Source: Lotus japonicus
Taxonomy: Eukaryota; Streptophyta; Magnoliopsida; Fabales; Fabaceae
Assembly (NCBI RefSeq): GCF_012489685.1
Contig: NC_080042.1
Location: forward strand, 18,986,150-19,050,149
Length of the DNA stretch: 64,000 nt
Direction of reading: 5' to 3'
Both the position numbers and the translations under genes were made by a program. Under the pieces are notes generated by a model. The model was given only the letters and a program-made list of their open reading frames with translations. It was not told the origin of the DNA and ran no database searches. Every line of letters starts with the position of its first letter. The stretch's first letter is position 1. Below are positions 14,869-61,845 of the stretch, piece after piece.

Positions 14869-17271
14869 AAGTTGAGTCAAAGGTCCAACAATCTTGGCGA
14901 AATTCTCGATGAAACGACGATAATATCCCACCAAACCGACAAAACTCCTGATCTCAGTCACTGTCCTCGGCCGTTCCCATGACAATACGGTCTCTACCTT
15001 TGCTGGGTCCACAGCTATACCCTCTTTAGAGATCACATGGCCTAAGAATTTTACTTCTTTGAGCCAAAATACGCACTTAGAAGGGTTGGCGTACAACTCT
15101 TTCTCCCTCAGCACTTGTAAAACTTGACGTAAATGCCCCTCATGATCCTCAGCATTCTTTGAGTAAATCAGAATGTCGTCGATAAACACCACGACGAATC
15201 GATCTAAGAATGTATGGAAAGTCCTGTTCATGTAATCCATGAAAATGGCAGGTGCGTTTGTCACCCCAAATGGCATCACTAAATACTCATAGTGTCCATA
15301 ACGAGTTCTGAATGCCGTCTTCTGGATATCCTCAGTCTTTACTCTGATCTGATGGTAACCCGACTTCAGGTCTATCTTTGAGAATATCGTAGCTCCTCGA
15401 AGTTGATCCATCAAATCATCAATTCTAGGTAACAGATACCTATTCTTGACGGTTACTTTGTTCAGTTGTCGGTAGTCGACACACAATCTAGATTTCCCGT
15501 CCTTCTTCTTCACCAATAAGACAGGCGCTCCCCAAGGTGAAACGCTTGGTCGGATAAATCCCTTCGACAGAAGATCCTCTATTTGAGACTTCAACTCCAC
15601 TAACTCTGCAGGTGCCATACGATATGGTGCAATCGAAATCGGCCCTGTTCCTGGTACGATGTCAATAGCAAACTCAATGTCGCGCACAGGCGGCAATCCA
15701 GGTACATCGCCAGGAAAAACATGCGTGAAGTCTCTCACAACTGGAATATTGTTAACTTCCGCATTCCCTTTACTCTCCAAGCTTAGCAATACGGAATACT
15801 CATGAGATCCTTCGTTCAAAGAGACGCTAATGTGATTGGCGGATAGATACTCGGAAAGATCCGAGTCAGGAAATACCACTCTCTTTCGGTTGCAGTCCAA
15901 AAGACAATGATAGTGGGACAACCAGTCCATTCCTAGGATAACATCTAGGTTCTTGAGAGTTAGGCACACTAGGTTAGCATGGTAGACTCTATCTCTATAT
16001 GTTACTGGACAATACATACATGCCGTATTAGCAAGTAGAGTTTTGGCAGGGGTTGTAACTATAAGATCGAAGCTCAAAGCAGAAATAGGAAGTTTTAATC
16101 TGGTCACACATTCCCTAGAGATAAAAGAGTGCGTTGCACCGGAATCGAAAAGTACAGTTAGGAGATTACCGTCAATCTCGCAGTCTCCCCTGATCAGACC
16201 GTCAACTCCTTCATTATCTTCACCATCCATGGTGTAGACTCTTGCCTTAGCAGCAGGACGCTTTCCACGAGCAGTGTTGACAGTTGGTTCCGTCTTGGGT
16301 GCTTTGCACTGTCCGGCAGTATGCCCCAATCTGTTACAATTAAAGCACTTGGGCCTCGTGTCGGGACAAACATTAGCATAATGCCCCGGCTTCCCACATC
16401 TGAAACAGGTAGTCTCCCTGTTCAAAGTCTGGCCTCCAGAACCACCAGCAGTACCCACCATGGGTCTATAAGATCCTGAAGCAAATCCTCTACCAGCGGG
16501 ACGTTGATACGGCCTCCTGCTCTGAAATTTCCCTCTGCCTAGAAAGTTTTGAGAGCCCGACCTCATCGGCCCTCCTGTTCCAGCACGATTCAGCCTCTTG
16601 TTCTTCATCAATTCCACTTATGTGGCTTTCTCAACCAAAGACTGGAAGCGCATGATTCCCAATGGCCTCACTGAGTCCTCGATATCAGGCCTCAGTCCAT
16701 TAACAAAACGCTTACACATGTAGCGCTTATCAACATGATCGTTGAAAAATTGGAAATGCTTCGCCATAGATTCCAACTTGGAAGCAAATTCTGGTACAGA
16801 CATACCTCCTTGACGAAGGGTCAGAAACTGTGCCTCCCGCTCATCCCGAGCACTTGTTGGAAAATACTTTTCCAAGAACGCAGTTCGAAAAGAGTTCCAG
16901 TTGATCTCCTCATGATTAGCTTCCATAATCCCCCTGGTGCCTCTCCACCAGTACTCAGCATCACCCAGCAGCAGATAAGTTGCCATGCCCACCTTGGCAC
17001 CCTCAACAGTCTGCAATACGCTGAATATCTTCTCAACTTCCTGGATCCAGAGATCCGCTTTGTCCGGGTCAGTACCACCCGAGAACTTTGGTGGATCTTG
17101 TCTCCTGAAGTCATTCAGGCCTTTGTTCTTATCTAGTGTCACTTCTCTCTGACGCTGATGCTGAACACGTGCCTCCTCAGCAGCACGCCTCATAGCATTT
17201 TCGTTCGCCTGTGCAGTCACAGCTTGGGCCATAGTGGCCATCATCTCAGCTAATTGGTTAGTGTTCACCAT
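14869..17271 (-). pseudogene. Element B gag-pol fragment
   Basis: Gag starts at 17271 (MVNTNQLAEMM) and is open to an in-frame TAA at 16618-16620, where element C has a Glu codon. The same frame then continues to the truncation, with two CCHC knuckles ([14 protein letters not shown] and [14 protein letters not shown]), protease [10 protein letters not shown], and RT with [25 protein letters not shown] and [12 protein letters not shown]. It ends after GPLTQLTR at the start of the RNase H region. The reading frame from 14868 down to 14764 is sequence from element A's LTR, not part of this protein. Confidence 0.85.
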
Positions 17272-18575: not shown

Positions 18576-19119
18576 CCTAGAGTTGTATATTTCTCAATGA
18601 ATATAAAAGACGATAATAACAATTAGCATGCATCAAATAGGATTAACAAGTATCAATCACACTCATGAAATGCAATGCTGGTTGACAAGATGCATTCCGG
18701 AAGGATGGGCATCAACGAGTCAGCCCTAGCACCAGCAACGGTGGGACCATTTCCGCTCGCGTGTCTCTTATACCACACAAAGTGTAGTCAGATCAGCAGT
18801 GAACCCGAAGGTCTGCCATTTCCGTCTGCTACTATGAATCACCGCAGTGTTTTTATATGGAAATCCGGGTCTTATGACCATTTTGGAATCCACCGAGGTC
18901 TGGTATCCCGCCGTGTATTAACCTCAAAATGAGTGCATGAATGCAAAGTGATTAGCCAAACAACGTCTCCGACCTCACTCGACACGTCGCCACGTGTTCT
19001 AGCTAACTTATTGTCTCTAAAAAGAATACCCTAAGGCAAATGTAGATTCTGCGACAAAATACAATTAATCATAAAAAGAGTGCAATCACTCACGATAACT
19101 CTTCAAGTCATCAATGCTC

Positions 19120-19362
19120 TCACGAAGTCTCACGCTTCAGTGAAGTCTTATACAATCACAAAGTCTCACGCTTCAGTGAAGTTTTATGCTTTCACGAGGT
19201 CTCACGCCTCAGTGAATTTACACACTTGCACGAAGTCTCACGCTTCAGTGAAGTTTCATGCGGTTCACGAGGTCTCACACCTCAGTGAAGATCCATGCTT
19301 TTCACGAGGTCTCACGCCTCAGTGAAGATTCACGCTTTCACAAGGTCTCACGCCTCAGTGAA
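19120..19362 (-). repeat. Seven-unit tandem hairpin array (element B LTR)
   Basis: Seven units at about 36-bp spacing start at 19120, 19156, 19191, 19229, 19264, 19301 and 19337. Each is a stem CAC/GTG (extended to TTCAC/GTGAA in most) plus a 4-bp stem GAGG/CCTC or GAAG/CTTC, one bulged base, and loop TCTCACG or TCTCACA (CGUGAGA or UGUGAGA on the transcript). The switch GAGG/CCTC to GAAG/CTTC is compensatory. Units 2 and 7 carry changes that keep pairing only as G.U on the minus-strand RNA. Confidence 0.75.
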
Positions 19363-26000: not shown

Positions 26001-27831
26001 TTTTTTGTCTACTGATACACCTTTGTTATCTGCTTATCGCATAAGAGCTTATTCATAAGCTAATTTGAGAAATTCATTGAAATAAGCTCAAAATATGTTA
26101 TAGGTAGGCATAAACACTTATTCATAAGCTAACCTGAGAAGCTTATGAAGATAATCTCAAAACAGGTTATAGGTAGATCTTAAGCTGTTTGCATAAACTC
26201 TTACAAATACTTGCATAAGTGTTTATGCTATAAGATAAGCTCGTATAAACTTTTCCAAACGGAGCCTGAACACAATAACCCATCTATCTTTCCGTCTGAA
26301 CCTCTATTGACTCAATTTTTCTCCAATTCTTCTGATTCATTTCTTTTTTTAGATCATTATTAGCAATTTCTTGACACTTTTGAATGTCTCTCCAGGCAGC
26401 CTATAATGTCATTGCTTACAAGGACAAACCACGCTTGCGGAGCGCTTTAGAAATGCTTAGAACTACTCAAGAAATAGAACGGCGGTTGAATGAAGTATGC
26501 TCTCATCTTCTGACTAATATACATTTCCTTGTTAAATATGTCTACCCAAGCTGAATCTGAATGAAGAAACTCTTTCAGTGGCTCCCTGAACTATTTTGTG
26601 ATAATTTTCAGGCTTAATCTTTAAAATAAAGACAAATGCTCCAACCCCTTATAAAATGAAATTGCAGAAGTGGTTTTTGATCAACTACTACTCATGAAAA
26701 AAAAGATTTCTGTTAATGTTAATTTAAGTCAGCCTTAATTGGATTTTTGAACTGATAAGCCATAAGATGCAGAGGACTTTTGGGATTGAAAATGCTACTT
26801 TTGAACACCTCATAGTTAAAAGCAATAATTTGTTTTGCAGAAAGCAAGCATTTGGGGTTTGAAAGGAAATTATATCTTGATAGTTGATACACTATTGCAT
26901 ACTCTTTTAACTCTGTCTTGTTCCTTCTGCTTTACCTATTCCTATTCCTGTTCATTTTTGTTGTTTAGCATGATATTTCATCTCAAATTCTTTTGTATTT
27001 ATTGATTTTTCTCCCCCCCCCCTTTTTCTCCTATTTTATAGGAGGATAAACTATTGGTTATTGATTGTGTTGAGAAATTTCACATTGGCTGGAAATATGG
27101 TCAAAATAGTCCGTATAAATGGTTGAGCAACTCTCACTCTTGAGCTAGCTTTTGTGGTAGAATTATGTTTAACCCAAATTCTAAGATAGTATCAGAGTCT
27201 ATCATAGATCCATTTATTGGAGACCATCCATATATGTGTCACATGTAGATGTTCATTCTTGCAAACTACAAGCTTTAGATATCTAACCTTGGGTGTGAGA
27301 GGGGTGTTGAAAATCGACCATCCATATATGTGTCACATGTAGATGTTCATTCTTGCAAACTACACGCTTTAGATATCTAACCTTGGGTGTGAGAGGGGTG
27401 TTGAAAATCGTACATTGACTAAAAAATAAACAAAATAATTCGTATAAATGGTAGAACAACTCTCACTCCTGCTAGCTTTTGGGTAGAGTTATTCATGAGA
27501 TTGTATATGAAATTTCACATTTTTCCCATGGAATGAAAATTATTATATATAATAGTTCAATGAAATTATTCATCTCATGTAATGGCTGTGAAAACAGGTC
27601 TCTCTACCATTGTTAATCCTTCATGGGGATGCTGACACGGTGACTGATCCATCAGTGAGCAAAGCCTTGTATGAGAAAGCAAGCTGTTCAGACAAGAAGC
27701 TTAAGCTTTACAATGATGCCTACCATGCTCTTCTTGCGGGTGAGCCTGATGAAGTAATAATTCAAGTTTTTGGTGACATCATTTCTTGGCTTGATGACCA
27801 CAGCTTGAAACATTATCAATCTTCACCTTGA
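23015..27831 (+). CDS. Alpha/beta hydrolase, monoacylglycerol lipase family (copy 1)
   Basis: Eight exons: 23015-23146, 24388-24417, 24509-24635, 24759-24905, 25625-25755, 25835-25972, 26396-26494 and 27598-27831. They join in frame to 345 aa, the usual MAGL size. Oxyanion HG is at H85-G86 (FFCHGYGDT), the nucleophile S161 is in GESMGG, the acid D281 is in HGDADTVTDP, and the base H311 is in AYHALLAG; all triad residues are present. The family hydrolyses monoacylglycerols or related esters, probably cytosolic or membrane-associated; the real substrate is not shown. Exon 2 is only 30 nt. Intron 3 has a GC donor (GCATGT at 24636) with a normal AG acceptor. Intron 1 holds a SINE, intron 6 an ATAAGCT-rich repeat and intron 7 a TRIM. 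An AATAAA lies at 27978. The caffeoyl-shikimate esterase branch is less likely by overall sequence pattern. Confidence 0.9.
23973..24190 (+). mobile_element. SINE-like insertion in intron 1 (copy 1)
   Basis: It has a tRNA-derived head: an A-box-like AAGTAGTACATGATTG near 23977 and a B-box-like GGGTTTGAGTC at 24014-24024. The body is of the GGAAAAAACTCTCACT..GAGTTAGCCCC type found in plant SINEs. The 3' limit is approximate and no target duplication was identified. Confidence 0.45.
26031..26266. mobile_element. MITE-like ATAAGCT-rich inverted repeat in intron 6 (copy 1)
   Basis: Multiple ATAAGCT/AGCTTAT words in both orientations allow extensive foldback, and the right end reads CCAAACGGAGCC. 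The pattern resembles a common non-autonomous repeat of legume genomes. Terminal repeats and target duplication were not resolved. Confidence 0.5.
27068..27498 (+). mobile_element. TRIM-like mini LTR retrotransposon in intron 7 (copy 1)
   Basis: The left LTR-like end TGTTGAGAAATTTC starts at 27068. An iMet-like primer site TAGTATCAGAGT is at 27187-27198. A purine tract GTGTGAGAGGGG directly precedes a second TGTTGAAAATC at 27399. Both LTR-like parts share CGTATAAATGGT and AACTCTCACTC words. GATTG flanks it at 27063-27067 and 27499-27503, a possible target duplication. The internal part contains a 94-bp direct duplication (27222-27315 and 27316-27409). Non-coding. Confidence 0.5.
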
Positions 27832-27977
27832 TACTATTCAAAAGAAGAATATTCAGATTGTTTTCAGTTGATATTTACTTCTACTTTGGTAGATTGAACA
27901 TCAAAATTTGAAGTTGTTTATTCTTTACCATCTTAGTCAATTACTAGTGTAGCATTGTTTAATGTGAATAATACAGA

Positions 27978-27983
27978 AATAAA
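27978..27983 (+). terminator. Candidate poly(A) signal of the hydrolase gene
   Basis: AATAAA lies about 147 bases after the stop codon in AT-rich sequence, before SIRE element F begins at 28075. Confidence 0.4.
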
Positions 27984-28074
27984 GAAATATAGTGGGAATG
28001 CAAAATCTATTGGCCCTTAAGCTTGCTTGATTAAGGTTTAACTTTGGAACCTCCTTTGTTTGACATGGAGTAGA

Positions 28075-29265
28075 TGAAGGTATGAAAAACGATAGAAAGG
28101 GGGTTTGAATAGCGTTTTTACTCTAAAAACTTTTCCGACTTGAGATTTTAACAAATCTCTTCAAACACCGAGAATGAAAGTGCTAAGATAAGAGTTTGAG
28201 GAAAGAACACAATAATTTTATCTTGGTTCACTTGATAAATCCCTCAAGCTAATCCAGTCCACCCGTTAAGGTGATTTCTTCCTTCTTAGAATGAAGGCAA
28301 TCCACTAATCAGAGTTTGTTACAACTGCACTTGCAACCTGCAAAGTGACTAACAATACAATGACTTAGCTATCACTAAGATTCACTCTCTTAGTCTTCTC
28401 AAGGATCTGACCAACCTTGGTCTCCTTAAGGAAAAGCAAACAACTGTTTGAAAGTTTTGGTTTACAAAGAAATGCTTTTCAGAAAGCTAATAGTAAACAC
28501 AATAAGTACAATATGAAGAAAGATTGCTTAAGAGAATATTTGAATTTCGCGAAAGCTTGAACAAAGTTTCTTAAAGCGGCATCTTTCATATTCAGCCTCT
28601 TTATATACTCCAAGGATTAAGGTTTGGAAGTTTGCATGGAATGCTACCGTTGGAAGGCAGATCTGGATTTTCTAGGTTCTGCTGTGGCTGAATAAGTTAG
28701 GTAAGGTCGTCAGGAATGGTACAATTGCTTTTGTACTTTGGATAGTGACATGACCTTTATCCTAGTTGACTTCTGTTCAGAGCGATGCTTCATGTTGGAA
28801 CTTGTGAAGCTTGGTGATCAGAGTTAGAGGGAAGCTTGGATCCTCTGACCTTTGTACCTTCTGCTTCTTGACTCAGAGGAGAAGTACTTGGTCTTCAGAG
28901 CCAGCTTACTCTTGGACTTCAGAATCTTCACTACTCAACTTCTGAACCTTCAGAGCTTCTGATCCTTCAGAGCTTCTGGTCTTCAGAACTTCAAGTGAAC
29001 TGAATCCATATCAGAGCTTTACTATCTTCAGATCTTCTGAAGCTTAATCTACTGTTCAGATTGAACATAGTGAGTGCGAAAGCGTTGCGGAGGTAACTCT
29101 TTGAGTATGGTGCTTCTGATTTATGTGTAATTAGATCAGAGTTAGAGCCTGTCATTAAAACACTCAGAAAACAACGTTAGAGTATCATAATTGTTCATAC
29201 ACAATAGTTAACATGTAATCATCAAAACATAGAGTTGTACTACTAGATCAAAACTTGATCTTACA
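28075..29265 (-). repeat. SIRE-type 3' LTR (1191 bp, copy 1)
   Basis: TG at 28075, CA at 29265. Both ends match the 515-bp LTR at 5216-5730. It retains the central region lost there, with the TATA box on the minus strand. Confidence 0.88.
28599..28608 (-). promoter_or_regulatory. TATA box of SIRE LTR (copy 1)
   Basis: The minus strand reads GTATATAAAG. A transcript from it would run leftward out of the LTR toward the 3' end of the hydrolase gene, antisense to it. Confidence 0.55.
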
Positions 29266-29279
29266 ATCTCCCCCTTTTT
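29266..29279 (-). other. Polypurine tract of element F (copy 1)
   Basis: The minus strand reads AAAAAGGGGGAGAT directly before the LTR, the usual plus-strand primer position. Similar AAAAAGGGGGAGT sequence recurs at 29746-29760. Confidence 0.7.
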
Positions 29280-30019
29280 GATGATGACAAAACCAAGTAT
29301 TTTGATGAACAATTCTTAAACAATAAACTGAATTCACTCAGAGTTTAGAATAGAGATAAACTTATCCTGAGGTGAATGGTTTATGTTGCTCATTCTGAAT
29401 CCAAGTCACAGCTTGATTCTGAGCTTAGCTCCCCCTGAATCTAAGACTTAATGAAAACATTAGTAATATCTAGATTCTGAGCTAAATAACAAAAGAGTTC
29501 AGAGTGAGAATTTATGACATAGATAATTATTAGAATATCAGAGCGCATAAATATTCAGAGTCAAGAGCAAGGTAAAAGTATCAAAGTCAGCCGATTTAGC
29601 ATATGATCATGTCAAAAGAAGTGAAAATGTATTACTTGCAAATGCTCACGGACAGATCTATGGTCATAAAGAGTGGAACTCTTAAATTCTCCAAAAGAAA
29701 AAGAAATCACACTAACACAGCTTACACATCAAAAACTGGTTGCATACTCCCCCTTTTTGTCATAAGCAAAAAGAATGGGGTGTGAAAAACTTAGCTTGAA
29801 GTACAAGGACTCCCCCTTAGAGAAGGTCTAAGTTTAAAAAGATGGAGAAAAAAAATAAAAGGATTAAAGAAAACGTATGTAATTAATGCATATGCAGAAG
29901 ATTAAATGAAGGAGTGGAACGTTTACTACCGGCCAAGGAGTTAAAAGTAAGCAACTGTTACCAATAAACAATCCTCGAGAAACTGCTTCAGCATTAACTT
30001 CTGGAGACTAAACTGATCT

Positions 30020-30026
30020 TATAAAA
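30020..30026 (+). promoter_or_regulatory. TATA box of antisense mini-gene (copy 1)
   Basis: TATAAAA lies 63 bp before the ATG at 30083, on the strand opposite to the retroelement's own genes. Confidence 0.45.
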
Positions 30027-30082
30027 AGCGGTTAAAGCATGACAGTCTTCACATCTCATTTGCACTTGAAATCAACATTGCA

Positions 30083-30472
30083 ATGGCATCCTTCATAGCA
30101 TACATCGAAGAATTAAGGAAGAAAGCCTTTGATGAAGATCTCTTCATCAACGTGCGCCACCCAGAGGAGCCGAGTGTCTATAGTCTGACAAACCAGCTAC
30201 TAGGCATGGGCATGAGTCCAGAAATGGACAGCATCCTCAGAGGCTTCCTTGCGTTTGTAGAGGAGCTTCAAGATCTCTTCCAGCGGGAGCTGGATAATTC
30301 TGCCAAAAGACAAGCGACGAAGACTGCACTTGAGACAATGGCGGAGGGTCCTGAGAGGCAGGAAGTGCGCCAGAGCTTGATCCAACTAGAGTATAGGCAG
30401 CATCGTCTAGAGCTTGAGAAAGCAGCGATGCGTAGGCAGTGTAGATCATTGAGGAAAAATCCTCCTTTTTAA
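30083..30472 (+). CDS. Antisense 129-aa ORF within SIRE element F (copy 1)
   Basis: Starts MASFIAYIEELRKKAFDEDL and ends KNPPF. It is mostly alpha-helical by composition, rich in Glu, Arg and Leu, with a likely coiled coil from about residue 95 (QLEYRQHRLELEKAAMRRQ). No known domain is recognised. It lies between the 3' LTR and the env-like remnant in the opposite orientation. It has its own TATA box (30020-30026) and an AATAAA (30506-30511), so a complete transcription unit fits in about 490 bp. It is undamaged while the sense-strand ORF beside it is broken. Function unknown. Confidence 0.5.
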   Translation: MASFIAYIEELRKKAFDEDLFINVRHPEEPSVYSLTNQLLGMGMSPEMDSILRGFLAFVEELQDLFQRELDNSAKRQATKTALETMAEGPERQEVRQSLIQLEYRQHRLELEKAAMRRQCRSLRKNPPF

Positions 30473-30682
30473 ATGTATGAATGCACATGTATGAAAGATG
30501 TTATTAATAAAGAAGTTTGTTTGTTGATTAATGCGTTTGAGTAAAAACTAAGTAATGATGACCAAGTAATTATGCAAGCACATAGGAAAGAAAAACGATA
30601 ATAGGATAAAAGAAACATAGTTAAATACGAAAACATAGTAACATAGTAGAAGGAAAACAGAAGAAAGGAGAGTTCCTAAAGA

Positions 30683-32210
30683 CTAAGGCTTGGGTGTCCT
30701 CTTCAGAAGTTCTGTGCACATCTCATGCAGACTCTGGAGAAGAGCTTCTTGAAAATCAAGTCTTCGTTCAATGAGATCAAGTCTTGAGTCTGACTGAGCT
30801 TGAGCAGACGGAACAACTTGTTCAGAGTGAGGAGCTTGAGCAGAGGTGGAGGCAAAATCAGTAAATGGAATAATTCCAAGGGCTTGATTTCTAAGAGCCT
30901 CAGCTTCAGCTTGTAGTCTAGCTGCTTGTTCCAGAGCTTCCAGCCTTGCAGCTTCACGTTATTCAGCTTCAAACCTTGCAGCTTCTTCTTCTTGTTCTTT
31001 CTTCTTCCTTGCTTCTTCAATAGCAGTATAAAGTTGATCTCTCAACTTTTGTTCATTCAATGCTTCTCTTCTTCTGAAACGCTGACTAGCAGCTTCAATT
31101 CTTTGATCCCTTTCAGCAGTAAGGAAAGCCATCATCACTGCCACTTGATAAAGCATCCAAGTGCATAGACGATCCCAGTCGTCAGCAACCATGTCTGGTT
31201 TCTCACTGAGGTAAGTGCGACCATGCACACTGTGAACCCTTAAAGATGCTTCATGATTAAATAAGTTAATGCAATCAAGCAGGGTGTTTGGTCCAAGGTG
31301 GGTATAGGGAAGAATTGAGAGATTGGTTTCAGGTGAAGAGGGATGATTAAATAAGTTAATGCAATTTGCAAAGTTTGAGGTTCAGAGGTATTGGTCTCAG
31401 GGTTTGGATGAGAAACTTCAGTCTTAGGATTTGGAGATTTGTCAGAGACAGATTTTTCATTTTGAGGTGGAGGAGAAAGAGGAAGAGGTGGTGGTACTGA
31501 AGTGAGAGGGACCGCTTGGATTGGAAAATCAGGAGCAACCAGAGGTTCTGGTCTTGGTCCAGGATAGCGGTTTGGACTTGGAACATTTATGAAATGTTCA
31601 GGAATTTCTGAAATTCTTTCTCTGGCAATTTGAAAGAATTGGCGAGTGGCTTTAGATTCATTTGATGGAGAGGAAAATTGAACATTGGTAGGAAAAGAGA
31701 CAGAGGGAGTAGGAGAGAGAATTTCTTTATCAGAGGGTTCCTGATTTGAGTGATCAGAGGGTTTAGGCTCAGAGTTAGACTTTTCAGTGGTTGGTGTTTC
31801 TAGAGCTTGTATCTCAGAAGCTTGTGGTTCAGAGGCTTGTGGAGTGGATGGAAGTATAATGGGTGAGGTTGGTTTAGTGGACTTAGGAGTTTGGAGCATT
31901 TTCCAGAGGGGTTCTTCCTCAATGGAGGGTTGAAAGAATGAAGCCCTAGGTGGTGAAATGTGTGAAGTTGATTGATCAACTAGTGTGGGTTCAGGGTTGG
32001 ATTCAACATGAATTGCATCAAGCAAATTTAAATCATCTTCATCAGAAAGAACAATAAACTTACTTGAAGCTCTGACTACTGATCTTGTGACTCTGGTAGA
32101 AATTGCAGCTCTAGTAGGCTCCAGAGTTGGTTCCAAATGAGTGACTTGGGTTGCAATTCTGACCTTCTTTGCTATCTTCTGAGGCGGTGGTTCATCATCA
32201 TCATTATCAT
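30683..32210 (-). pseudogene. SIRE env-like ORF remnant (copy 1)
   Basis: The N-terminal part (from 32210, entering at DNDDDEPPPQKIAKK) is rich in Ser, Pro and Thr. The C-terminal part (31228-30683) contains a predicted coiled coil (RRREALNEQKLRDQL) and ends with LLKRTPKP before a TAG. There is an in-frame TAA at 30959-30961 and a frame change near 31240-31340, beside a 23-bp direct repeat (31253-31275 and 31343-31365). A Met at 32238 lies in LTR D and is not its true start. The position after pol and before the LTR matches the env-like ORF of SIRE elements; a membrane fusion role is not shown. Confidence 0.6.
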
Positions 32211-34038
32211 TGTAACGCCCCGATTTCTCGAGGGTCACTTTAGTAACCTTTCCAAAAACTAAATATGCTGACTAAACTTTCGAAGTCAATAATAACCAAG
32301 TATTTTTTTTTTCAAAACATGCTCTAGCGAATGCACAGTAATTACCCAATAATATATAACTTCATATCCAAAAGTATGGGTACAATTGAGTCTTTAAAGA
32401 GAAATATCAAAAGACTTCTTATGCCCAACAAGCTCCTTATGATCTCCATACTGGGTAGACCACAAAATAGCAAAACATCAGAACCTACCATTTCTCTAAA
32501 ACCAAAAGAATACAAACTCCTATGATCATCCTACAAGCTTCAACCAACAACGATAAGCTTTCTACCCAAAAGGCTCAAGCCGTACACAAGACTATTCCTC
32601 CTCCGAGGGATTCTCTTCGACGGTCGAACAATCAATCTCTCATAAGATCTGCAACAGGGTTCTGGCATCAGAAGACATGTAGTCAATCCCACGAACGACT
32701 TACTGTGCGCTTCACCGAACTAATGCAAAGACATGACACTTCATCCGATCATCATGGATCCTCCTCATAAGCAGCGTCACAGCAACTTTCCCAGAAGCAT
32801 GGTGCTTGATCATGGTTGCCGCCCATCACCTGGCAGTCGCCGGCCGCCAAACACAAGCAATACATACAATGGCGTGCGAGGGTCAACTTCCAGAATATAG
32901 GTATATATATAATAGTAGGTCACACAATATACACATAATCACATACTTATACATTTCACGGCTTACTAACGCAATCTATCGATCACGTGGCTTATGTAAA
33001 ATACGAGGGTTGTCAATGACAAACCTCTCTGACACACATAACAATTAAATCACATTAGCTTATCTCAAGCATATCAAAACTCATAGCACATATCACCTCA
33101 TCATCAAGCTCAATCGACAACCCTAAGGTTAGTCTATATGCTCGTGCAAATGCAATGCCACATAGGCACATCAAATGATTCGGATATAAACGCCTTTTCC
33201 ATGAGGTAGGCGAGACAACACTTAGTCGGTCTGATACCCACTCCAGTATCAACCTCTGACTAGTGAATGTCACTTAGTTGATACCCACTCCAGTATCAAC
33301 ATAGTTGATAACCTCTCCATTATCAACATCTGAAGGTACGACCGCTCCATCGTCCTCAGAAGACAGGCATGGCCACTCCACCATCCTGACAAAAATGTAT
33401 GCATGCATGATATGAATCATGGTTAGCCAAACAAACAAGAACGCCCTCTCTAGTGTTCGTGTTTACTGCTGAGAAAATAGTTAAACTATGATACAATTAT
33501 GAGTTGATCACCAACGGTTGCACTCTGCTCCAAGTGACCGAAGTTTACACTACGACAGGTCACTCCACTCCAAGTAACCGTGTCGCCGAGTCTCGTCTTT
33601 CTTTCATCTAAGCCATCAAATAAGGCCCCCCTTTGAAATTCTCTTTTCTAAAAAGGATTGAAGTCTCATTTAAAAATATCTTTCTAGAAGCTTTGCGTTG
33701 CAGTAAACTTTCTTTTAATTTTCAAAATATGTGTACACTTTGATTATTTATTTTAGATGAAGTTTATAAGTAAATCATGAATACGTTTGTTCCTTTTCGA
33801 AAACTTTGGTAGGTTAAAATAAAAGCTCCCACCCTGTGTAACCCTTTTTGAGAAAACCTCTCAATCAAAAACCTCAGTAAATCAAAAACATCGTTAAAAT
33901 CTCCTCTAACCGACACTCAGAAAACCCTTCGGTTACAAAAACAATATGTCGTCAACAGATAATCAAATTCACAATAGAAGTATAGACATCATCACAACAA
34001 GCCATTATATCAAATAGCTAGCATCAAAGTGCTCTCAT
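32211..34038 (-). repeat. LTR D: third Ty3/gypsy LTR family, truncated (copy 1)
   Basis: It begins TGTAACGCCCCGATTTCTCGAGGGTCAC, closely like the left ends of LTRs A, B and C, so it is probably in the same minus orientation. A GAGGGTCAACTTCC block (about 32880) matches the start region of the LTR ORF in B and C, but I could not trace the ORF itself. A striking hairpin array is at 33232-33585. It is cut at 34038 by LTR E. Nothing else coding is seen. Confidence 0.6.
33232..33585 (-). repeat. Hairpin array with invariant 8-base loop (LTR D, copy 1)
   Basis: Seven hairpins share the loop CNNCTCCA on the plus strand (UGGAGNRG on the transcript): 33232-33251, 33277-33300, 33304-33327, 33334-33356, 33364-33388, 33515-33540 and 33553-33585. 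Stem sequences differ completely, for example GTTGATAC/GTATCAAC, GTTGATAA/TTATCAAC, ACGA/TCGT and ATGG/CCAT. The second and third differ by a compensatory closing pair. The last has a 12-bp stem with one bulge and one pair that is G.U only on minus-strand RNA. Confidence 0.75.
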
Positions 34039-34394
34039 TGTAAGACTCGATTTTAGGGCATATTATTTTAATAATAATATTAAATAATATTCTGTGAATT
34101 GCTTGTGCTATATGTGGTATTATGCCTTTTAAAAAGGTGATTAATTTTTAGAAGCAATATTAAGTCCTAGAAACCTCTAGACGTTGATGAGCGCGACGAT
34201 ACGAGCATTTTGACTATAATATTGCTAGGGTTCGGTGACGACGACTTTTAGGTCAAAATCGACCCGACGGCAGCGATGAGTTGGCGAATCGAGTCGACGA
34301 GGACGATTTCGTGGGCCGCACCTTATGGGGAGGTGTTGGGAATGATTTTAAGAATATTCTAGGAGAGAATATTCCGTGGTTTTATTTTTGAAGG

Positions 34395-34431
34395 TTTTAT
34401 TTAAATAAAATGGGGTTTTATTTAAATAAAA
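34395..34431. repeat. Two tandem perfect 16-bp palindromes (copy 1)
   Basis: TTTTATTTAAATAAAA occurs at 34395-34410 and again at 34416-34431, separated by TGGGG, about 640 bp upstream of the LTR E TATA box. Confidence 0.7.
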
Positions 34432-35070
34432 CGCATTTAAATAATTTTAACCTATGGTTTAATATCAAAATTAATTCTGAAAATATTTTTGAGGCATAAT
34501 GGAGCTGGTGCACGAATTTTTGGAGCCAAAAATTATTGATGAGGATTTTTGATTTTAAAATTGAAGTTTTGATGCGTTTAGGAGGGAAATGGTGCATTTA
34601 ATGCATTAATTATTTTAGGGTTTTTATTTAAATTATTATTTTAAAAATTTTAGGTGAAAATCTGAGCATGGAGAGTGTGTGGTCGGCCAAGACTTGTGGA
34701 GGAAGGAAAAAGAAGACTTTTGCAAAAATTTCCTTTTCTAGCTAGGTTTTATGATGGAGAGAAATTAGGGATGTGATTCTTTGATTTTCTTTTTAATGGG
34801 GGATTGATTTCTAAAGTTTTAAAACTTCCAAGGATCCCTCCAAATCTGATTTAAAACTCTTGTGACTCAGATTTTATTTCTTTAAATAATTAGGGATTTA
34901 AATGCTAATTTTTGTCGGGTTTAATTTAGGAAATAAACCTAAATTTGAGGGCTAAAGGTGGGGAGTTTCGGAAAGTTGTAGAAACCCCTAGAATGGGCTG
35001 AAGGAGGGGCGGTTTTGGGCCTCACTTGGGGAGGAAGAAAAGAAATTAATGCTTTGCTCTCACCTCTCAC

Positions 35071-35078
35071 TATAAATA
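35071..35078 (+). promoter_or_regulatory. TATA box of LTR E (copy 1)
   Basis: TATAAATA lies in the context CTCACTATAAATAGAGAG, typical of plant core promoters, followed by a CT-rich leader. Confidence 0.6.
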
Positions 35079-35487
35079 GAGAGCTCCTCCTCATTTTTCA
35101 CACAAGCTCACTTGCTCTCCTCTCTCCCTAGCCGAAGTTCGAAGTGAGCGTGATCCCGCCAAATCCAAAGTCCTAGGACGTGTTTTTGCTGTGACAAAGG
35201 TAAGGGCACTTCGGCCTCGGCCTAGATAAATTGTTTGTGATTGTGATTGTTAGCAAGCATGATGCTAGGACTATTGATGATGTATGAGCTAGATATGCTA
35301 TATGATGATGCAATAAATGCTAGCTAGTGCTATTATGAACATGCCTATATGCCTAGGGTGTTAGCTATATTTATTGCTATGCATGCAAGTTATTATGCGA
35401 TGATGTGTTGTTCATAAGAGATGAACGTGATGGGCTTAGGGCCTAGTGATGATGACTGACTTGCATGGCATGCATTTGTGGGCCAAG

Positions 35488-36162
35488 TGTAACACCCCGA
35501 TTTCGGTGGCGTCACTTTAGTAACCAAAAGAAAATACTTTAAGCGGAAAAACGTGAATTATTTTTTTTTTCGACAATATAACTAAAGACAGAAAGCAATA
35601 AAACTCCCCAACAAAAGATAAAGGAACTACTATACAACTATATATACATGCCTCGCTAAACACTACCACGTCACGAGTAACCTCCAGTGACGGGTGACAG
35701 AAAAGAGTAACGCCCGAAGGCAATATGTACAGTCCAAGATAAAGATACTGTGTCCGCAAACACTAAACTACAAAATCTGAGAGCAAGTTGGCCCAGCGGC
35801 CTAAGAAAAGACCCCCTAAATCCAACCAGCTCTCTGTGATCTCCATAGGAAACCACACAAAAGCTACCGGTAGGAAAACTACCCTGTCCCCAAAAACGGA
35901 AGCATGACGGTCAGAGCATCGACACTACTCCTACACTATCCCTACCCGAGGAGCCCACACTAGCACTCGATCCTACACGCTAGCGCGGTCGTCATCCGAA
36001 TCTGCATCCAGGACGACTAGGTCGACGTACTCAACACTGCCCTCTTTGTCCACCCTAATGCGCTCCTGCTGGACTCTCGGGCTCGGGGGCCGGAACGAGA
36101 TCCGCGACGACAGCAGCAGCAGTAGACGGACTAGACTCCGTCGAAGCCCCACCTACTGGCAC
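35488..36162 (-). repeat. Start of element C LTR (copy 1), ends at assembly gap
   Basis: It matches 51105-51778 closely and includes the C-terminal part of the LTR ORF (with a 2-base deletion near 36070). It stops at the N run. Confidence 0.88.
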
Positions 36163-36262: not shown

Positions 36263-37229
36263 TAAAATCAAGCTATTTGAACAGTTTTACAAAAAGCTCC
36301 AAACTTTGAGCACAGAAAGACATAGAAGAAGTCGACAGAATTGACGATCAGAAGTGAGGGATAGTATCTATACCTCGTAGTCTTGAAGTGGCAACGAACT
36401 GTGAAGCAATTGGGCAAGAAACGACGAAAATCTTCTTCTCCTCCTCCTCCAATGAAGGTCGCAGGTTTGGGAAGAAAATGGGTAAGTTTTTGCCAAAATT
36501 TTTCATTTCCTTGCTATTTATAGGTTTTGGAAAATGCGGAAAAATGAAAATTTCGCGATTCCGATTTTTCTTGCGCATTCCTCGTAGAATTCTAAGATAG
36601 GTTCTGGCGACAGAATTCCAAAACTCAAAAGAGGTTTCTTGGAATTAAGGTAAACGATTCAAAGTCGGTGTAAATCTATTTTACCCGAAAAACTACTTTT
36701 TGCAGCGAATGTCGGAAGAGAAAACTTCCTTCTGAAGAAAAATTGGAAACATCAAGAGAAATGGGTGTACGTGTGTGGAATCTTCATTTGAAGCTTCGAA
36801 TAGAAAAAGTCTTCATCGTCGGTTGATTTTAGGTTTCTTAAACTATCACGGTTTTTAGTTTCGGCAAACCTCCGAGGATTGGAATCGGACGTTCGTACAT
36901 TCTAGGGTTTCGCATCGAAACGCTTGTTTATAGACGATCAAGAGAAGTTCTAACATTTCTCTGAAGATTTTTGGAATTAATTTCCATCGTGCCTTTAAGT
37001 GTAAATTAGCTATTTACTAGTGTTCTTGCCCTAGGTTTAAGCGTATATTAGTCGTGCTATAACTCTTATCGATTTTGATACAGTCCTTAGACTTTTCCTG
37101 AACTTTCTCCTTCATAAATTTATCTCATTCAATAAACTCTTGTTCAGGTTTCCCTCCACGATACATCAAACCTAATCGTGAATAGGAATTTTATTCACTT
37201 ATTCTAAACTTAAAAACTTGGGTCTTACA
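36263..37229 (-). repeat. LTR B fragment (copy 2)
   Basis: It corresponds to 20644-21609, ends TTACA at 37229 and retains the TATA box at 36514-36523. The rest of the LTR is lost in the gap. Confidence 0.88.
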
Positions 37230-37892
37230 CGTACAATGCATACAGGTTGCATCCACAGCTAAATGGCAACGAACTCTGAGTTGGTTCACCTGAATAGCAT
37301 TATGGAGAATCAGCCAAACAAGCATCCTTATTTTCTCAGGCACTTGGAGCTTCCAAACCCAGCCAAGTCTCCGGTCCTCTTGCTGATTATGTTGAGCATC
37401 ATTGAGCCAAGCATAGGCATCGCGAACAGAATAGATCCCAGTGCTACCCACCGTCCAAATCCAACCATCGCTTCGAGTCGCACACAGAGACGGTTGCATC
37501 ATCAACAGCTTCTTAGTAACAGAGGCAGGAAGGATAGTATATAATCGGTTAAGATTCCAACTGGTATCCGGGAAAACATCTTTCAGCTTCAACTCATTAT
37601 CAGCAATATTAACAAATGAAAATTGTTTAGCAATTGGGCCTGTCCCGCTACAATCTTTGTACCAAATCGACGTTTCACCATTACCTAGCTGGAAGCTAAA
37701 GTGCTGCCCAACTTGGTCTCGAGCACGTAAAATGCCCTTCCAGACTGACGAGTCCTGCTGGTGCGCTTGAACATTTAGAATTGAAGAGTCCTTGACATAT
37801 TTGTGCTCAAATACTTTTACCCACAATTTATTTGGTTTCTGAACCATTTGCCAAACGGCTTTCCCAAGCAGCGCTGTATTAAACTGATTCAT
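37230..37892 (-). pseudogene. LINE reverse-transcriptase C-terminal fragment (copy 2)
   Basis: Same relic as 21610-22272, but here the frame is open for the whole fragment, because a Gln codon stands where copy 1 has TAG. It contains the RT thumb-like start (MNQFNTALLGK) and zinc-binding RVT region. The C-terminal residues after CMHCT are LTR B sequence. Confidence 0.75.
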
Positions 37893-38634
37893 CTCCTTGA
37901 TTCCAACATGTTAATATTTTTAATAAAAATTGATATAGTTTCTAATTAATGGTTAATGAAAATATTGTAATAACATAAAAAGTTGTTAGTAACTAATTAA
38001 TATTGTCATTTAAAAAAAAATATTGTCATTAATGTAAAGTTCTATACCTAATATAATTGTTTTATATAAAAGTACTATTTTATTTTACTTTATTGATTAT
38101 AAAATTCTTTTCACTTTTTTAATTAGTAATTAGCATTGAAATATGAAATTTTGAGATATTTTACGATTAATAGCTAAAATAATCAATAATATAAAAGGTT
38201 ATTATTTTTGTTCCATTATAAAAGGTTATTATTAACTAAATAGTATTGTTTTTAATTCTCTTCACCACATTCCCTTTTTTATATTTCCCTGTCATTGTCC
38301 TTATCCTGAGTCAAATTTTCCATATTTTTCGGATCCTCTCCACGTTTTTTTTATTTTTTGAAATCTTAAAGCTAATGACAGATACTCAGATACCACCTTC
38401 TGGATGGTTGGAACTTTTAAAAGTAAAATAGAAGAATTTTTTTGTTGTTGTTCTGTTCCCACTCTGTTTTTTCTTTTTTAATATACATGTATATATATTT
38501 CGGGGTTATGCCGGAATCAATTTGTTTGATTCTGTATTCTGGGTCTTTAAATCAGGCCAATTCCAAGTTTTTAGAATTTGTAGAATTCAGGGGTGCATTC
38601 TGTTTCCTGAGGAAATAAAAAATAATTATCAACC
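37893..38634 (+). promoter_or_regulatory. Upstream region of hydrolase gene (copy 2)
   Basis: Identical in character to 22273-23014: AT-rich, no coding signal, TATATATATT near 38490. Confidence 0.35.
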
Positions 38635-41600
38635 ATGAAGCTAGAAGGTGTTGATAATGAATTACAGAAGATTTTGGATGCTAAAATGGATGAAGTGGGC
38701 GCTAGAAAGCGTGCACGTGAAGCCTTCAAGGATATTCAGCTTGGGATTGATCATATACTGTTTAAGGTGTGTGTGCCTTTGGTTTGGTCTTCTTTCGTTT
38801 CTTTTGTTTGTTGTTGTTGTTGTTTATGGAATTGATTGAATGAATCCCACTTATTTGTTTGGTTTTGTTTTGTCTTGTGAGTAAAGTTTTAATCCATTTT
38901 TTTAATATTGTTTCTGGTAACTCTGCATCCAGGTGCTGTATTGCAATAAATTTGGCTTTGGTCTGGTTTTCTCTTTCTTTAGTTCTGTGGACATTAATTG
39001 GTATTTGGTGATAGTACATGGTTGTTGAGATCTCCTAGTTCAACATGGTTACGTGGGGATAAAATATTGACTTTGTGATTGCTTGTAGTTGTTGGCAACT
39101 CCTTAGACTTAGAGGGTAGTTGGAAGAGGGAGAGGGCCTGTTCTTTCATTTTTACTAGGTAAAGTGAGAGAGTCTGTTCTAGGCTTTTAGTTATTAAATG
39201 TTATAGCCAACTTGCAACTTCTTTTACTTGCCTGATTGCATTAAGAGTATGTATTTTTTTTATATACATTGCTCTTACAATTTCGATTCAAGTTGGTAAA
39301 GGCTAAAAGTCTTCATAAGTGTAGCACTAAATTTTTGACCTAGAAATTTAAACAATCACTTTTAACTACTGCAATCAGCACCAATTAGGTGTATTATCGT
39401 CTATCGCTCATGATAAAATTTTATATGATTTTTTATGTTAAAATTTTGTATTTATTTCTCTTCAAAAAATTTAACAAAATTTTACCTATTTAATATATTT
39501 ATATAAAAAGATAGATAAATACAAAATAAGGTGATGGGAAATTTCACTATACTAAGCTGATTGTAACAGCTAAATTTTATATGATTTTTTATGTTCAAGT
39601 AGTACATGATTGATTCCCCTTAAACAAAGTCTAGGGTTTGAGTCTTGTAGATGGAAAAAACTCTCACTAGGAGAGTTAGCCCCACCGTGTGGTGGATGTA
39701 CCCAGCTCGAACAGAATTGCCTCCTGTGTGGAGGACACCCGTAAGATATAAAAACACCCAAGTGGCATCTTGCCTTAAAGGCAGTAAGACCAACAATGAG
39801 GGAAAGTGAGACCAACACATAGATTGTTTTCCTAATTCAATCACATCCTGTATTTATTTAGGTATTAAGCATGGGAGATTTTAAAGGTTACATGATTTAT
39901 CACTACAAAACACTAGTATCATTTTATCTGATGTGATATTTCACTTGAATTGAGTAAAAATTTTGTTTTCTTCAAAATGTTAATATCATTTTTTTCATTC
40001 TTTGCAGACTCCATGTGATGGACTAAAAATGAAAGAGGTGAGAAGTTTTGTTTGAATTTGAAACACATTCATGCTATGAATTTGAAACAATTGCTAATTT
40101 GATGTTTTGTTCTATGCAAATGCAACAGACTTATGAGGTGAACTCAAGGGGCGTAGAGATCTTTTATAAAAGCTGGCTTCCTGGGGAATCTAAGCCCAAA
40201 GCAGCTGTATTTTTCTGTCACGGTTATGGAGACACTTGCACCTTTTTCTTTGAAGGCATGTAGCAGCTACCTTGTATTTGGAAATTGGAACTGCTAGCTA
40301 GCTATAACTTTAAGTAACTAAATTCAGTTATCTTGTGGAATAGTAACTCAATTGTGACTTGGAATCTTTCATTTGCAGGAGTTGCTAGAAAGCTGGCATC
40401 ATCTGGATATGGAGTTTTTGCTATGGATTATCCTGGATTTGGTCTTTCAGAAGGTCTCCATGGCTTTATTCCCAGTTTTGATGAGCTTGTTGATGATGTC
40501 ATTGAGCAGTACTCCAAAATCAGAGGTACTTTACATACTCCTATCAATGGATCCGAATTTACTACCGCAGACTGCACTTCTGTCACAAATCCAAGTTGTT
40601 CAATTAGGATTGGACTGCTCATATTTCTAGCCTGTAAATAATTTATATCCAAATTATTGAGATCAAATATATATTGTTTGATCTTAATGCAATGGCTAAT
40701 GTTGAATGACTGCAGTAACTGCGTCAAAATGTGACTGTAGTTGATCCGGATCCCCCATTAACCCCTGTCATACATTTTCCAGTCATCATGAAATGCAATC
40801 ATTATAAATTTAATGAGTTAGAATTAGTTGCTCCTTAGGAAGGGGATCAAATGCTGCATTGTATCCTGGTGGTCTATGTACCTTGACAGGATTAGTTTTG
40901 TAGATAATTGTTGAGATAGAAAAGGACACTTATCTATGTACTGTAGTTCTAAGTTATGTCTCATGTGTATTACACATTACTCAAATTATCAATTAGAAAA
41001 TATTATTCCTTTCAACTTTTCCAATATAGGCAATACTTAAAGTGCATATTTTTTATGAAGGAAATATCTCAGTTGTCTCCTATAAGTCATTTTGAACTTT
41101 GGCAATAAAATAGAAACAATGCAAGTTCACTATTTACTAAATTGTGAACATTACATGTAACTTATTTCATCTTACACTGGAAACAAGTTGAACAACATAT
41201 ATATGAGGGTTTTGATTATTTGATACTACTGTATTCTATGGCAGAAAACCCTGAGTTCCATTCTCTTCCCAGCTTCCTATTTGGAGAGTCCATGGGTGGA
41301 GCTGTCGCGTTGAAGGTGCACCTGAAACAACCTAATGCATGGGATGGCGCCATTCTTGGTGCACCAATGTGTAAAGTATTAATCCTCAAACACAATCATG
41401 TAGGTTCTGATTGGATTTGCTATGATCTCCCTTTGACCTGAAAAATTTGTTTAGATTGCAGATGACATGGTTCCATCAAAGTTGGTCACTCAGATCCTTA
41501 TTGGTATAGCCAATGTTCTTCCGAAGCATAAATTAGTTCCACAAAAGGATTTAGCAGATGCAGCATTCAGAGATTTGAATAAGAGGAAGCAGGTTTGTAT

Positions 41601-43450: not shown

Positions 43451-43693
43451 TACTATTCAAAAGAAGAATATTCAGATTGTTTTCAGTTGATATTTACTTC
43501 TACTTTGGTAGATTGAACATCAAAATTTGAAGTTGTTTATTCTTTACCATCTTAGTCAATTACTAGTGTAGCATTGTTTAATGTGAATAATACAGAAATA
43601 AAGAAATATAGTGGGAATGCAAAATCTATTGGCCCTTAAGCTTGCTTGATTAAGGTTTAACTTTGGAACCTCCTTTGTTTGACATGGAGTAGA

Positions 43694-52126: not shown

Positions 52127-52784
52127 AGAATTATATAATTAATAAAACCAGATATATTTATAGGATAATAAATACTCGCCTCTCAGGCTTATAAGTTTTG
52201 GGATAGCTTCCTAGGGTTGCATGTATCACAATGAATATAAAGAGCCATAAAAACAAGTAGCATGCCTCAAAAATAGGATAAACAGTTACCAATCACACTC
52301 AGCAACTAAGTCAGCATGTATGTTGCATGAAATGCAATGCTGGGTAACAAAATGCATTCCGGAAGAAGGATGGACATCAACGAGGCGGCCCTAACACCAG
52401 CCACGGTGGGTACCTTCCTGCTCGCGTGTCTCTTACACCACACAAAAGTAGTCAGATCAGCAGTGAACCCGTAGGTCTGCCATTCCGTCTGCTACTGAGG
52501 ACCACCGTAGTGTCCTAAATATGGAAATCCGGGTCTTATGACCATTTTGGAATCCACCGAGGTCCGGTATCACGCCGTGTATTAACCTCAAAATGAGTGC
52601 ATGAATGCAAGTGATTAGCCAAACAACGTCTCCGACCTCACCCGACACGTCGCCACGTGTTCTAGATAACTTAAAGTCTCTAAAAGAATACCCTAAGGTA
52701 AATGTCGATTCTGCGACAAAATACAATTAATCATAAACAAAAGAGTGCAACCACTCACGACAACTCTTCGAGTCATCAATGCTC

Positions 52785-53027
52785 TCACGAAGTCTCTCGC
52801 TTCTGTGGAGTCTCACACATTCACAAAGTCTCACGCTTCAGTGAAGTTTTATGCTTTCACAAGGTCTCACGCCTCAGTGAATTTACACACTTGCACGAAG
52901 TCTCACGCTTCAATGAAGTTTCATGCTGTTCACGAGGTCTCACGCCTCAGTGAAGATCCATGCTTTCCACAAGGTCTCACGCCTCAGTGGAGTATCACGC
53001 ATTCACAAGGTCTCACACCTCCGTGAA
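52785..53027 (-). repeat. Seven-unit tandem hairpin array (element C 3' LTR)
   Basis: Same design as 19120-19362. On the transcript strand each unit is UUCAC-(U)-GARG-loop-CYUY-GUGAA with loop CGUGAGA or close to it. Unit 6 has UCCAC/GUGGA, a compensatory A-U to G-C change. Units 2, 3, 4, 6 and 7 contain positions that are A.C mismatches on the plus strand but G.U pairs on the minus strand. The plus-strand reading frames through it (repeating SHASVKF-like) are by-products of the repeat. Confidence 0.8.
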
Positions 53028-58200: not shown

Positions 58201-59709
58201 ATTCCCTTTACTCTCCAAGCTCAACAAAACTGAATACTCTTGAGATCCTTCATTCAGAGAGACATTAATATGATTGGCGGATAGATACTCGGAAAGGTCC
58301 GAGTCAGGAAATACCACTCTCTTTCGGCTACAGTCCAGAAGACAATGGTAGTGGGACAACCAGTCCATCCCTAGGATAACATCTAGGTTCTTGAGAGTTA
58401 GGCACACTAGGTTAGCATGGTAAACTTTATCCCTATAGGTTACTGGGCAATACATGCATGCAGTGTCGGCAAGCAGAGTTTTGGCAGGTGTGGTAACTAT
58501 AAGATCGAAACTCAAAGCAGTAACGGGAAGTTTTAATCTAGTAGCACATTCCCTAGAGATAAAAGAGTGCGTTGCTCCGGAATCAAAAAGTACAGTTAGG
58601 AGATTACCGTCAATCTCGCAATCTCCCCTGATCAGACCATCAACCCCTTCAGCTTCTTCACCATCCATGGTGTAGACTCTTGCCTTGGCAGCAGGACGCT
58701 TCCCACGAGCAGTGTTAACAGCCGGTTCTGTCTTGGGTGCTCTGCATTGAGCAGCAGTATGCCCCAACTTGTTACAGTTAAAGCATTTGGGCCTCATGTC
58801 AGTACAAGCATTGGCATAGTGCCCAGGCTGCCCACATCTGTAACAGGTCATCTCCCTGTTCACAGTCTGACCTCCAGAACCTCCAGCAGTACCCACCATG
58901 GGCCTATAAGATCCTGAAGCAATCCCTCTACCTGCAGGACGTTGATACGGCCTCCTACTCTGAAATCTCCCTCTGCCTTGAAAATCTTGAGAGCCCGACC
59001 TCATCGGCCCTCCTGTCCCAACACGGTTCAGTCTCCTGTTCTTCATTATCTCCACCTCAGTGGCTTTCTCAACCAAAGTCTGAAAACGAGTGATTCCCAA
59101 CGGTTTCACCGAGTCTTCAATATCGGGCCTCAGCCCATTCACAAAGCGCTTGCACATGTAGGGTTCATCGACCCCATTGCGGAAGAATCGAAAGTGCTTG
59201 GCCAACGATTCCAGCTTGGCAGCATATTCCGGGATGGACATGCTACCCTGACGAAGTGTCAGGAATTGCGACTCACGCTCGTCCCGAGCACTATCTGGAA
59301 AATACTTTTCCAGAAAAGCAGCACGAAACGAAACCCAGTTCACTTCCAAGTTGTTTGCTTCCATCATTCCTCTGGCGCCTCTCCACCAGTACTCAGCATC
59401 ACCCAACAGTAGAAAGGTTGCCATTCCCACCTTGGCCCCCTCAGCAGTCTGCAATACACCGAAGATCTTTTCAATCTCCTGGATCCAGAGATCCGCTTTG
59501 TCCGGGTCAGTACCCCCCGAGAACTTAGGAGGATCTTGTCTCCTGAAATCATTTAATCCCTTATTCTGATCCAGAGTTATTTCCCTCTGGCGTTGGTGCT
59601 GATCACGTGCCTCCTCAGCAGCACGCCTCATAGCATTATCGTTTGCCTGTGCAGTCACAGCTTGGGCCATAGTGGCCATCATCTCAGCTAGTTGGTTAGC
59701 GTTCACCAT
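55291..59709 (-). CDS. Element C gag-pol polyprotein (1472 aa), intact
   Basis: A single open frame. Gag capsid region is about 60-215 ([23 protein letters not shown]). Two CCHC knuckles are at 289-302 and 309-322. Aspartic protease [10 protein letters not shown] has D376. RT has [13 protein letters not shown] and catalytic FIDD, D698-D699. RNase H has YCDAS, D845. The integrase HHCC region begins with H1057, and the DD35E triad is D1127, D1188 and E1224. The C-terminus ([18 protein letters not shown]) is chromodomain-like, which in chromoviruses directs integration to heterochromatin. Gag and pol are in one frame with no recoding site, usual for this lineage. The start follows the primer site by about 200 bases. 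Every catalytic residue I checked is present, so it may be functional. Confidence 0.93.
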
Positions 59710-61601: not shown

Positions 61602-61845
61602 CTCACGAAGTCTCTCGCTTCTGTGGAGTCTCACACATTCACAAAGTCTCCGCTTCAGTGAAGTTTTATGCTTTCACAAGGTCTCACGCCTCAGTGAATT
61701 TACACACTTGCACGAAGTCTCACGCTTCAATGAAGTTTTCATGCTGTTCACGAGGTCTCACGCCTCAGTGAAGATCCATGCTTTCCACAAGGTCTCACGC
61801 CTCAGTGGAGTATCACGCATTCACAAGGTCTCACACCTCCGTGAA
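61602..61845 (-). repeat. Seven-unit tandem hairpin array (element C 5' LTR)
   Basis: Same units as 52785-53027. One base is missing in the loop of unit 2 (TCTCCG) and one T is added between units 4 and 5; no stem is disturbed. Confidence 0.78.

Follow-up and report, generated by a model that had tools for sequence, protein, structure and literature searches.

Seven hairpins of four stem classes sharing a GGAGNR loop in a long LTR of Lotus japonicus: a putative loop-recognised RNA element

In the bacterial RNAs of the CsrB/RsmZ type, several hairpins with GGA loops on unlike stems act together and are read by CsrA/RsmE. In HIV-1, the Psi hairpin (GGAG loop) and the SD hairpin (GGUG loop) are bound by the nucleocapsid protein NC; its two knuckles bind G7 and G9 of the GGAG loop, and packaging is described as not significantly affected when that loop is replaced (PMC7599994). 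The tandem CCHC knuckles of LIN28, an animal host protein that acts on microRNA precursors, read GGAG in the loops of pre-let-7 (PMC3759924). Ty3 has one zinc finger, in NC, and it is critical for packaging (PMC4974528). Certain RNA viruses are described as having multiple packaging signals, which are coat-protein sites dispersed over the genome (PMC6281560). In plants, the LTRs of the Sireviruses, which are Copia elements, carry arrays of palindromic units (PMC2829016, PMC10760457); in their boxes, situated upstream of the TATA box, constant CGG–CCG arms enclose a variable spacer (PMC2829016). The hairpins of maize LTRs are concentrated in Copia elements, Ty3-type elements being without an obvious peak (PMC10760457). 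How a plant LTR retrotransposon chooses its own RNA for packaging appears to be little known; in a 2025 review on the host factors of these elements the term ‘packaging signal’ occurs zero times (PMC12786077).

How does the present locus compare? The window, that is the whole stretch of 64,000 nucleotides that was analysed, holds an array of seven hairpins (h1–h7) at 33228–33585 on the minus strand, which is the sense strand of a long LTR, LTR D. The array is real, and its parts are as follows.

32212..34038, minus strand: LTR D, with its 3′ end at 32212 and its 5′ limit at most 34038, probably truncated
33228..33254, minus strand: h1, loop GGAGUG, bulge on the 3′ side
33277..33300, minus strand: h2, loop GGAGUG, inner stem identical to that of h1
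33304..33327, minus strand: h3, loop GGAGAG, closing pair A-U where h2 has C-G
33329..33360, minus strand: h4, loop GGAGCG, bulges on the 3′ side
33364..33388, minus strand: h5, loop GGAGUG, bulge on the 3′ side
33515..33540, minus strand: h6, loop GGAGCA, bulge on the 3′ side, weak
33553..33585, minus strand: h7, loop GGAGUG, longest stem, bulge on the 5′ side, sense-only wobble pair
33440..33457, minus strand: a possible eighth hairpin of degenerate form, U[AGAGAG]G, whose match to the covariance model (E 3.4) is not significant

An octamer with complementary arms on each side is present at all seven sites, as the preliminary description had it. On the sense strand this octamer reads UGGAGNRG in 7/7 hairpins, the CNNCTCCA octamers of h1 to h7 lying at 33238, 33285, 33312, 33342, 33373, 33525 and 33565. 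When each hairpin was folded as RNA with 16-nt flanks, the octamer was closed by a U.G wobble to leave a hexaloop, and it is best read as GGAGNR within a U.G closing pair. The hexaloop is GGAGUG in four of the seven hairpins; GGAGAG, GGAGCG and GGAGCA are found in one apiece. A loop that NC can read (GGAG, or exposed guanosines) on a hairpin marks a packaging signal of the retroviral type, and GGAGNR provides one in 7/7 cases. The bulges, on the 3′ side of the stem in h1, h4, h5 and h6 and on the 5′ side in h7, are those of the same local folds; h6 forms with 16-nt flanks and is absent with 22-nt flanks. Two further details claimed for the array proved correct, namely the compensatory change of the closing pair between two neighbours (C-G in h2, A-U in h3) and the combination in h7 of a bulge with a G.U pair peculiar to the sense strand.

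Between this array and the CsrB/RsmZ-type RNAs there is similar working at most, and no kinship. As in HIV-1, GGAG would be exposed in the loops of a retroelement RNA, and the related Gags encoded here also have two CCHC knuckles; but D has a U.G-closed hexaloop instead of a tetraloop, repeats one loop seven times and carries its array inside the LTR of a plant element, where a role in binding or packaging is putative (PMC7599994). With the LIN28 sites D has the loop word in common, whereas those sites come without an array of unlike stems (PMC3759924). The packaging signals of RNA viruses are, like the hairpins of D, stem-loops with a common recognition motif and otherwise differing sequence; those of D, however, are clustered within about 360 bases (PMC6281560). 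In D as in Sireviruses, palindromic units are arrayed in a plant LTR (PMC2829016, PMC10760457), but D reverses the design of the Sirevirus boxes, having a constant loop and variable arms (PMC2829016); its arms fall into four classes and lack the CGG–CCG core. Loop-read hairpin arrays are already known as a kind; the plant LTR setting is without precedent among the literature matches listed. Such an array was undescribed in the titles and abstract openings of those matches, from a coverage that leaves out most subscription journals.

How often does the motif occur in the window between pairing arms? There are 33 matches to CNNCTCCA, of which 14 are the seven array sites in two copies of a duplicated block (see below) and 19 lie elsewhere. 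Outside the octamer the array sites have 3 to 8 Watson–Crick pairs and the other 19 matches at most 2; the reverse motif has 19 matches in the window, each with at most 1. With G.U pairs allowed and the second block copy excluded, GGAGNN hexaloops on at least 5 contiguous pairs were counted at 15/257 sites on the minus strand, made up of the 7 of the array and 8/250 others, and at 1/107 on the plus strand. A covariance model built from the seven hairpins, R1, scores them at E 0.00043 to 0.019 by construction; its best match in the window outside the array reaches only E 2.4. Rfam release 15 yielded 0 matches at the gathering score over the whole window, and 4 sub-threshold matches in 32000–34200, none of which overlaps the array.

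We also scanned for loop words without presupposing the motif. Across the hairpins of 33200–33620 the commonest loop 5-mer is TGGAG (7 hairpins), a value matched by 0/100 dinucleotide shuffles, and it is the commonest in the entire LTR D too (7 hairpins; 0/100 shuffles); the value of the 4-mer version for the whole LTR was matched by 2/100. Elsewhere, LTR B was conspicuous for its tandem array (8; 0/40 shuffles) and the value of one host-gene control was matched by just 1/40 shuffles, those of the remaining 5-mer controls by at least 9/40. When 5-mer, loop length and offset were combined in 4,417 ways over the minus strand of the window, TGGAG in 6-base loops had p = 9.9e-7, or about 0.004 after multiplication by 4,417. 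Nine words from the tandem arrays of LTRs B and C rank above it, TGGAG being tenth, and all 7 of its matches in six-base loops are array hairpins.

If the loop is constant, do the stems vary together with their partners? Covariation was counted on 18-nt cores (7 sequences, 6 distinct), bulges and outer stems being left out. Paired cells amount to 91.7%, against 55.7% in shuffles. Both sides have changed in 14 cells (shuffled mean 5.0; 0/500 shuffles as high), and the covariation score is 1.03 against 0.25 in shuffles (0/500 as high) and at most 0.38 with slid partners. Change on both sides is seen at 5/6 pairs, a number that 81/500 shuffles also give. The three unpaired core cells all belong to the outermost pair; counted outwards from the octamer, pairs one to four are formed in 7/7 hairpins, which makes up all 28 inner pairs. 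Exchange of arms between hairpins preserves these 28 pairs in 4/5,040 permutations, and from the pairing table these four are the identity and the swaps within h1/h2 and h6/h7. Since only these exchanges keep all 28 pairs, we conclude that each stem matches its own partner. The stems form four classes (h1–h3, h4, h5 and h6–h7): h2 and h3 constitute a 27-bp tandem repeat, and h6 and h7 are 85% alike over 20 nt. The earlier assertion that the stem sequences differ wholly is therefore too strong, there being four classes, not seven, and an identical inner stem in h1 and h2.

The end of LTR D aligns with those of LTRs B and C1 over 37 bp at 84%, and its segment 32409–32511 aligns with LTR C1 at 67% (104 aligned columns, E 1.6e-7). 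It thus shows what is looked for in a long Ty3/gypsy LTR, an end homologous to the LTRs of a complete element. Beside LTR D we did not find the primer-binding motif that comes after LTR B (17468) and LTR C2 (59906), so LTR D is a 3′ or solo LTR. It lacks a TATA box of the type found in its relatives B, C1 and C2; what it has is a TATA-like sequence at 33769, on the upstream side of the array when read in the sense direction. At 34039–35487 there is a plus-oriented LTR-like stretch that starts with TGTAAG, has a TATA-like box near 35070, stands head to head with LTR D and terminates at a C-type LTR end. Because this stretch begins at 34039 and the relatives' type of TATA box is missing, LTR D is probably truncated on its 5′ side.

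LTR D lies in a 15.5-kb block that is present twice (20644–36162 and 36263–51778, 99.87% identical, with a run of N between), which reflects either tandem duplication of recent date or a fault of the assembly. B/C-type LTRs were seen at the edges of the block. The seven octamers with 14 nt on either side are identical in the two copies; in a 40-base frame 6/7 hairpins are identical and h5 differs. The array is thus present in the second copy, as had been reported, but this copy is not independent: because the block is 99.87% identical beyond the N run, it adds no evidence, and the effective sample is one family and one array copy. Neither the Gag nor the pol of D itself was found in the window. 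What is probably a host gene is represented by plus-strand pieces at 24422–27831, and the piece scanned, 27592–27831, matches Pfam Hydrolase_4.

Which strand would carry the element? The invariant U and G that flank the loop can pair on the sense strand only, as can the additional wobble pair of h7. The fold z-scores favour the other strand, at −5.45 antisense versus −3.85 sense for 33225–33395 and −4.37 versus −2.70 for 33225–33600. Since the antisense z-scores are the stronger, energy gives no ground for the sense orientation, which is argued from the wobble pairs and from the LTR's direction. In the 171-nt antisense fold (33225–33395) all five hairpins of the stretch are formed. The corresponding sense fold has h3, h4 and h5, and swaps arms between h1 and h2, which puts two GGAGUG segments opposite each other in an internal loop. 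The 376-nt sense fold (33225–33600) has h3, h5 and h7 as drawn, with h4 added in the centroid; h1 and h2 are again swapped and h6 is missing. Its antisense counterpart forms h1–h4 and leaves h7 unformed.

Is D the only LTR of the window with an array in this part? Tandem hairpins with another loop were found in its relatives.

19119..19362, minus strand: LTR B array, seven tandem hairpins, loop YGUGAGA
52784..53027, minus strand: LTR C1 array, seven tandem units of the kind seen in LTR B
61602..61845, minus strand: LTR C2 array, six units matched, of the kind seen in LTR B

The units of LTRs B and C are 26-nt tandem hairpins with a heptaloop YGUGAGA, replaced by CGAGAGA in two units. Twenty units, 11 of them distinct, match the search pattern, and one C2 unit with a deletion does not. 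In these units 96% of cells are paired, compared with 92.7% after shuffling (3/500 as high), and both sides have changed in six cells (0/500 shuffles). Compensatory exchanges of A-U for G-C and of U-A for C-G occur at two pairs, as in 54/500 shuffles, and the pair types are no more numerous than in shuffles. Consensus folding of the B/C stretch lent no support (double change in 1/87 pairs, covariation term +1.78). As these arrays are plain tandem repeats, their constancy is weaker evidence than that of D. They show, however, that D is not alone in having a hairpin array in this part of the LTR. A conserved CTATAAATAGC TATA box lies 1,541–1,553 bases upstream of the array in each of B, C1 and C2, so that these three arrays are transcribed if the CTATAAATAGC box is used; from the TATA box of these relatives we infer that the array part of D may be transcribed as well. 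C1 and C2 are 99.78% identical over 4,088 aligned columns, C2 being cut by the end of the window.

What proteins do the related elements encode? ORF 55291–59709 of the C1–C2 element, flanked by LTRs C1 and C2, has Gag, CCHC, protease, RT, RNase H and integrase domains, and tandem knuckles are present in two related Gags.

58744..58845, minus strand: tandem CCHC knuckles in the Gag of the C1–C2 element, ORF 55291–59709
16306..16407, minus strand: tandem CCHC knuckles in the Gag of the LTR B element, ORF 14764–16617

Comparison with the PDB, which covered the knuckle pair of the C element only, gave HIV-1 NC (best E 1.6e-8) and LIN28 (E 0.007), both as likenesses of sequence. The C element has tandem knuckles, yet its loop is other than GGAG. 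Pfam reported no chromodomain in ORF 55291–59709 at E 0.001; a chromodomain at the integrase end is the mark of the Tekay/Del lineage of Chromovirus, and no assignment to that lineage was made.

In our view the array is probably an RNA element under selection, whatever its kind. The loop-recognised RNA element put forward in the preliminary description, which we retain as putative, is consistent with the covariation, the permutation of arms and the sense-only pairing of the invariant U and G. Against it, the stems are less independent than claimed, the second copy of the block carries no evidential weight and the longer sense folds leave some hairpins unformed. What might read such an element? 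Our best explanation, held tentatively and somewhat short of even chance, is that the sense strand of a long Ty3/gypsy LTR has, in its transcribed part, an RNA element that Gag reads. Each hairpin would show a GGAGNR hexaloop, its stem sequence being free provided that the arms pair, and repetition of the loop would give one loop-reading protein several places to bind along the array. Of the possible readers we think the Gag of the element itself the likeliest; its tandem CCHC knuckles would hold the exposed guanosines of the loop, and such binding would select or gather genomic RNA for packaging, the several sites being additive. Gag is favoured because related Gags have tandem knuckles, HIV-1 NC and LIN28 read GGAG, and the finger of Ty3 is critical. 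The pairing of loop with knuckles is drawn by analogy, since the window yielded no Gag of D itself; we infer that a protein would bind the D array and that this protein would be Gag, which as reader is a credible candidate at a little under an even bet. The stronger antisense folds count against this explanation, and so does the C element, with its knuckles and other loop. Further points against it are the longer sense folds with their swapped or missing hairpins, the 81/500 shuffles that equal the number of doubly changed pairs, the HIV-1 result on replacement of the GGAG loop (PMC7599994), and the single effective copy of an array whose stem classes number four instead of seven. It is doubtful whether long-LTR plant Ty3/gypsy elements carry family-specific, loop-coded hairpin arrays in the transcribed LTR as multivalent packaging signals read by Gag, GGAG being the code of D. 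If this were true, plant retrotransposons and animal retroviruses would use one GGAG code, whether shared or convergent. A short loop-coded array would lend itself to tests that use small RNAs and the purified NC domain, and to comparison among elements and among plants.

The same covariation and permutation of arms would be expected if the selected RNA element were read instead by a host RNA-binding protein, for nuclear export of unspliced RNA, RNA stability or translational control of the long leader, and RNA-structure-dependent export elements are described in LTR elements of the mouse (PMC12786077). We regard this reading as unlikely, though the strongest of the rivals, because GGAG is the word of tandem CCHC knuckles, which the related elements encode. 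Might the palindromes act as DNA, on transcription or chromatin? Both strands of the array fold well, a TATA-like sequence lies upstream of it at 33769, and plant LTRs do have arrays of palindromic boxes upstream of the TATA box (PMC2829016). But the constant loop and variable arms are the opposite of the Sirevirus boxes, one strand alone has the U.G and other wobble pairs, and the comparable B/C arrays lie downstream of their own TATA box; action at the level of DNA is thus improbable. Slightly less probable still is the idea that the hairpins serve RNA silencing as substrates or are left over from it, or that the palindromes have no function: small RNAs do coincide with the palindromes of Sirevirus LTRs (PMC10760457), but a constant loop on unlike stems would be left unexplained. 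That the array was a chance find or a plain tandem duplication, picked by eye in 64 kb, is very improbable; duplication does relate h1–h3 and h6–h7, and the motif was chosen after the sequence had been read, but the motif-free scans single out TGGAG, and the loop is common to four stem classes without full cross-pairing. An RNA complementary to the loop was sought inside LTR D, and pairing of loop with loop there is rejected, CUCC being absent from the sense strand of D.

Two other candidates were dropped. In LTR A (5730–7429 and 13170–14867) UGCG loops had been noticed by eye on several stems (6243, 6301, 6266 and 6327, within 6181–6470), and the shuffle test was unsupportive. For the whole LTR the best loop words are not UGCG, and shuffles equal the best value in 87/100 cases for 4-mers and 100/100 for 5-mers; for 6180–6470 they do so in 69/100 and 31/100. 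An exact pattern of the LTR end searched against viral contigs gave one match, L001, which has ORFs bacteriophage-like by eye and six loop-motif matches without an array, and was dismissed as a chance match. Two predicted UNCG-type tetraloops were observed in LTRs B and C (18690–18990 and 52345–52655). These regions show little covariation overall; between B and C the two tetraloops differ at their variable second base alone, with UGCG giving way to UACG in one and UUCG to UACG in the other, which looks like preservation of the tetraloop.
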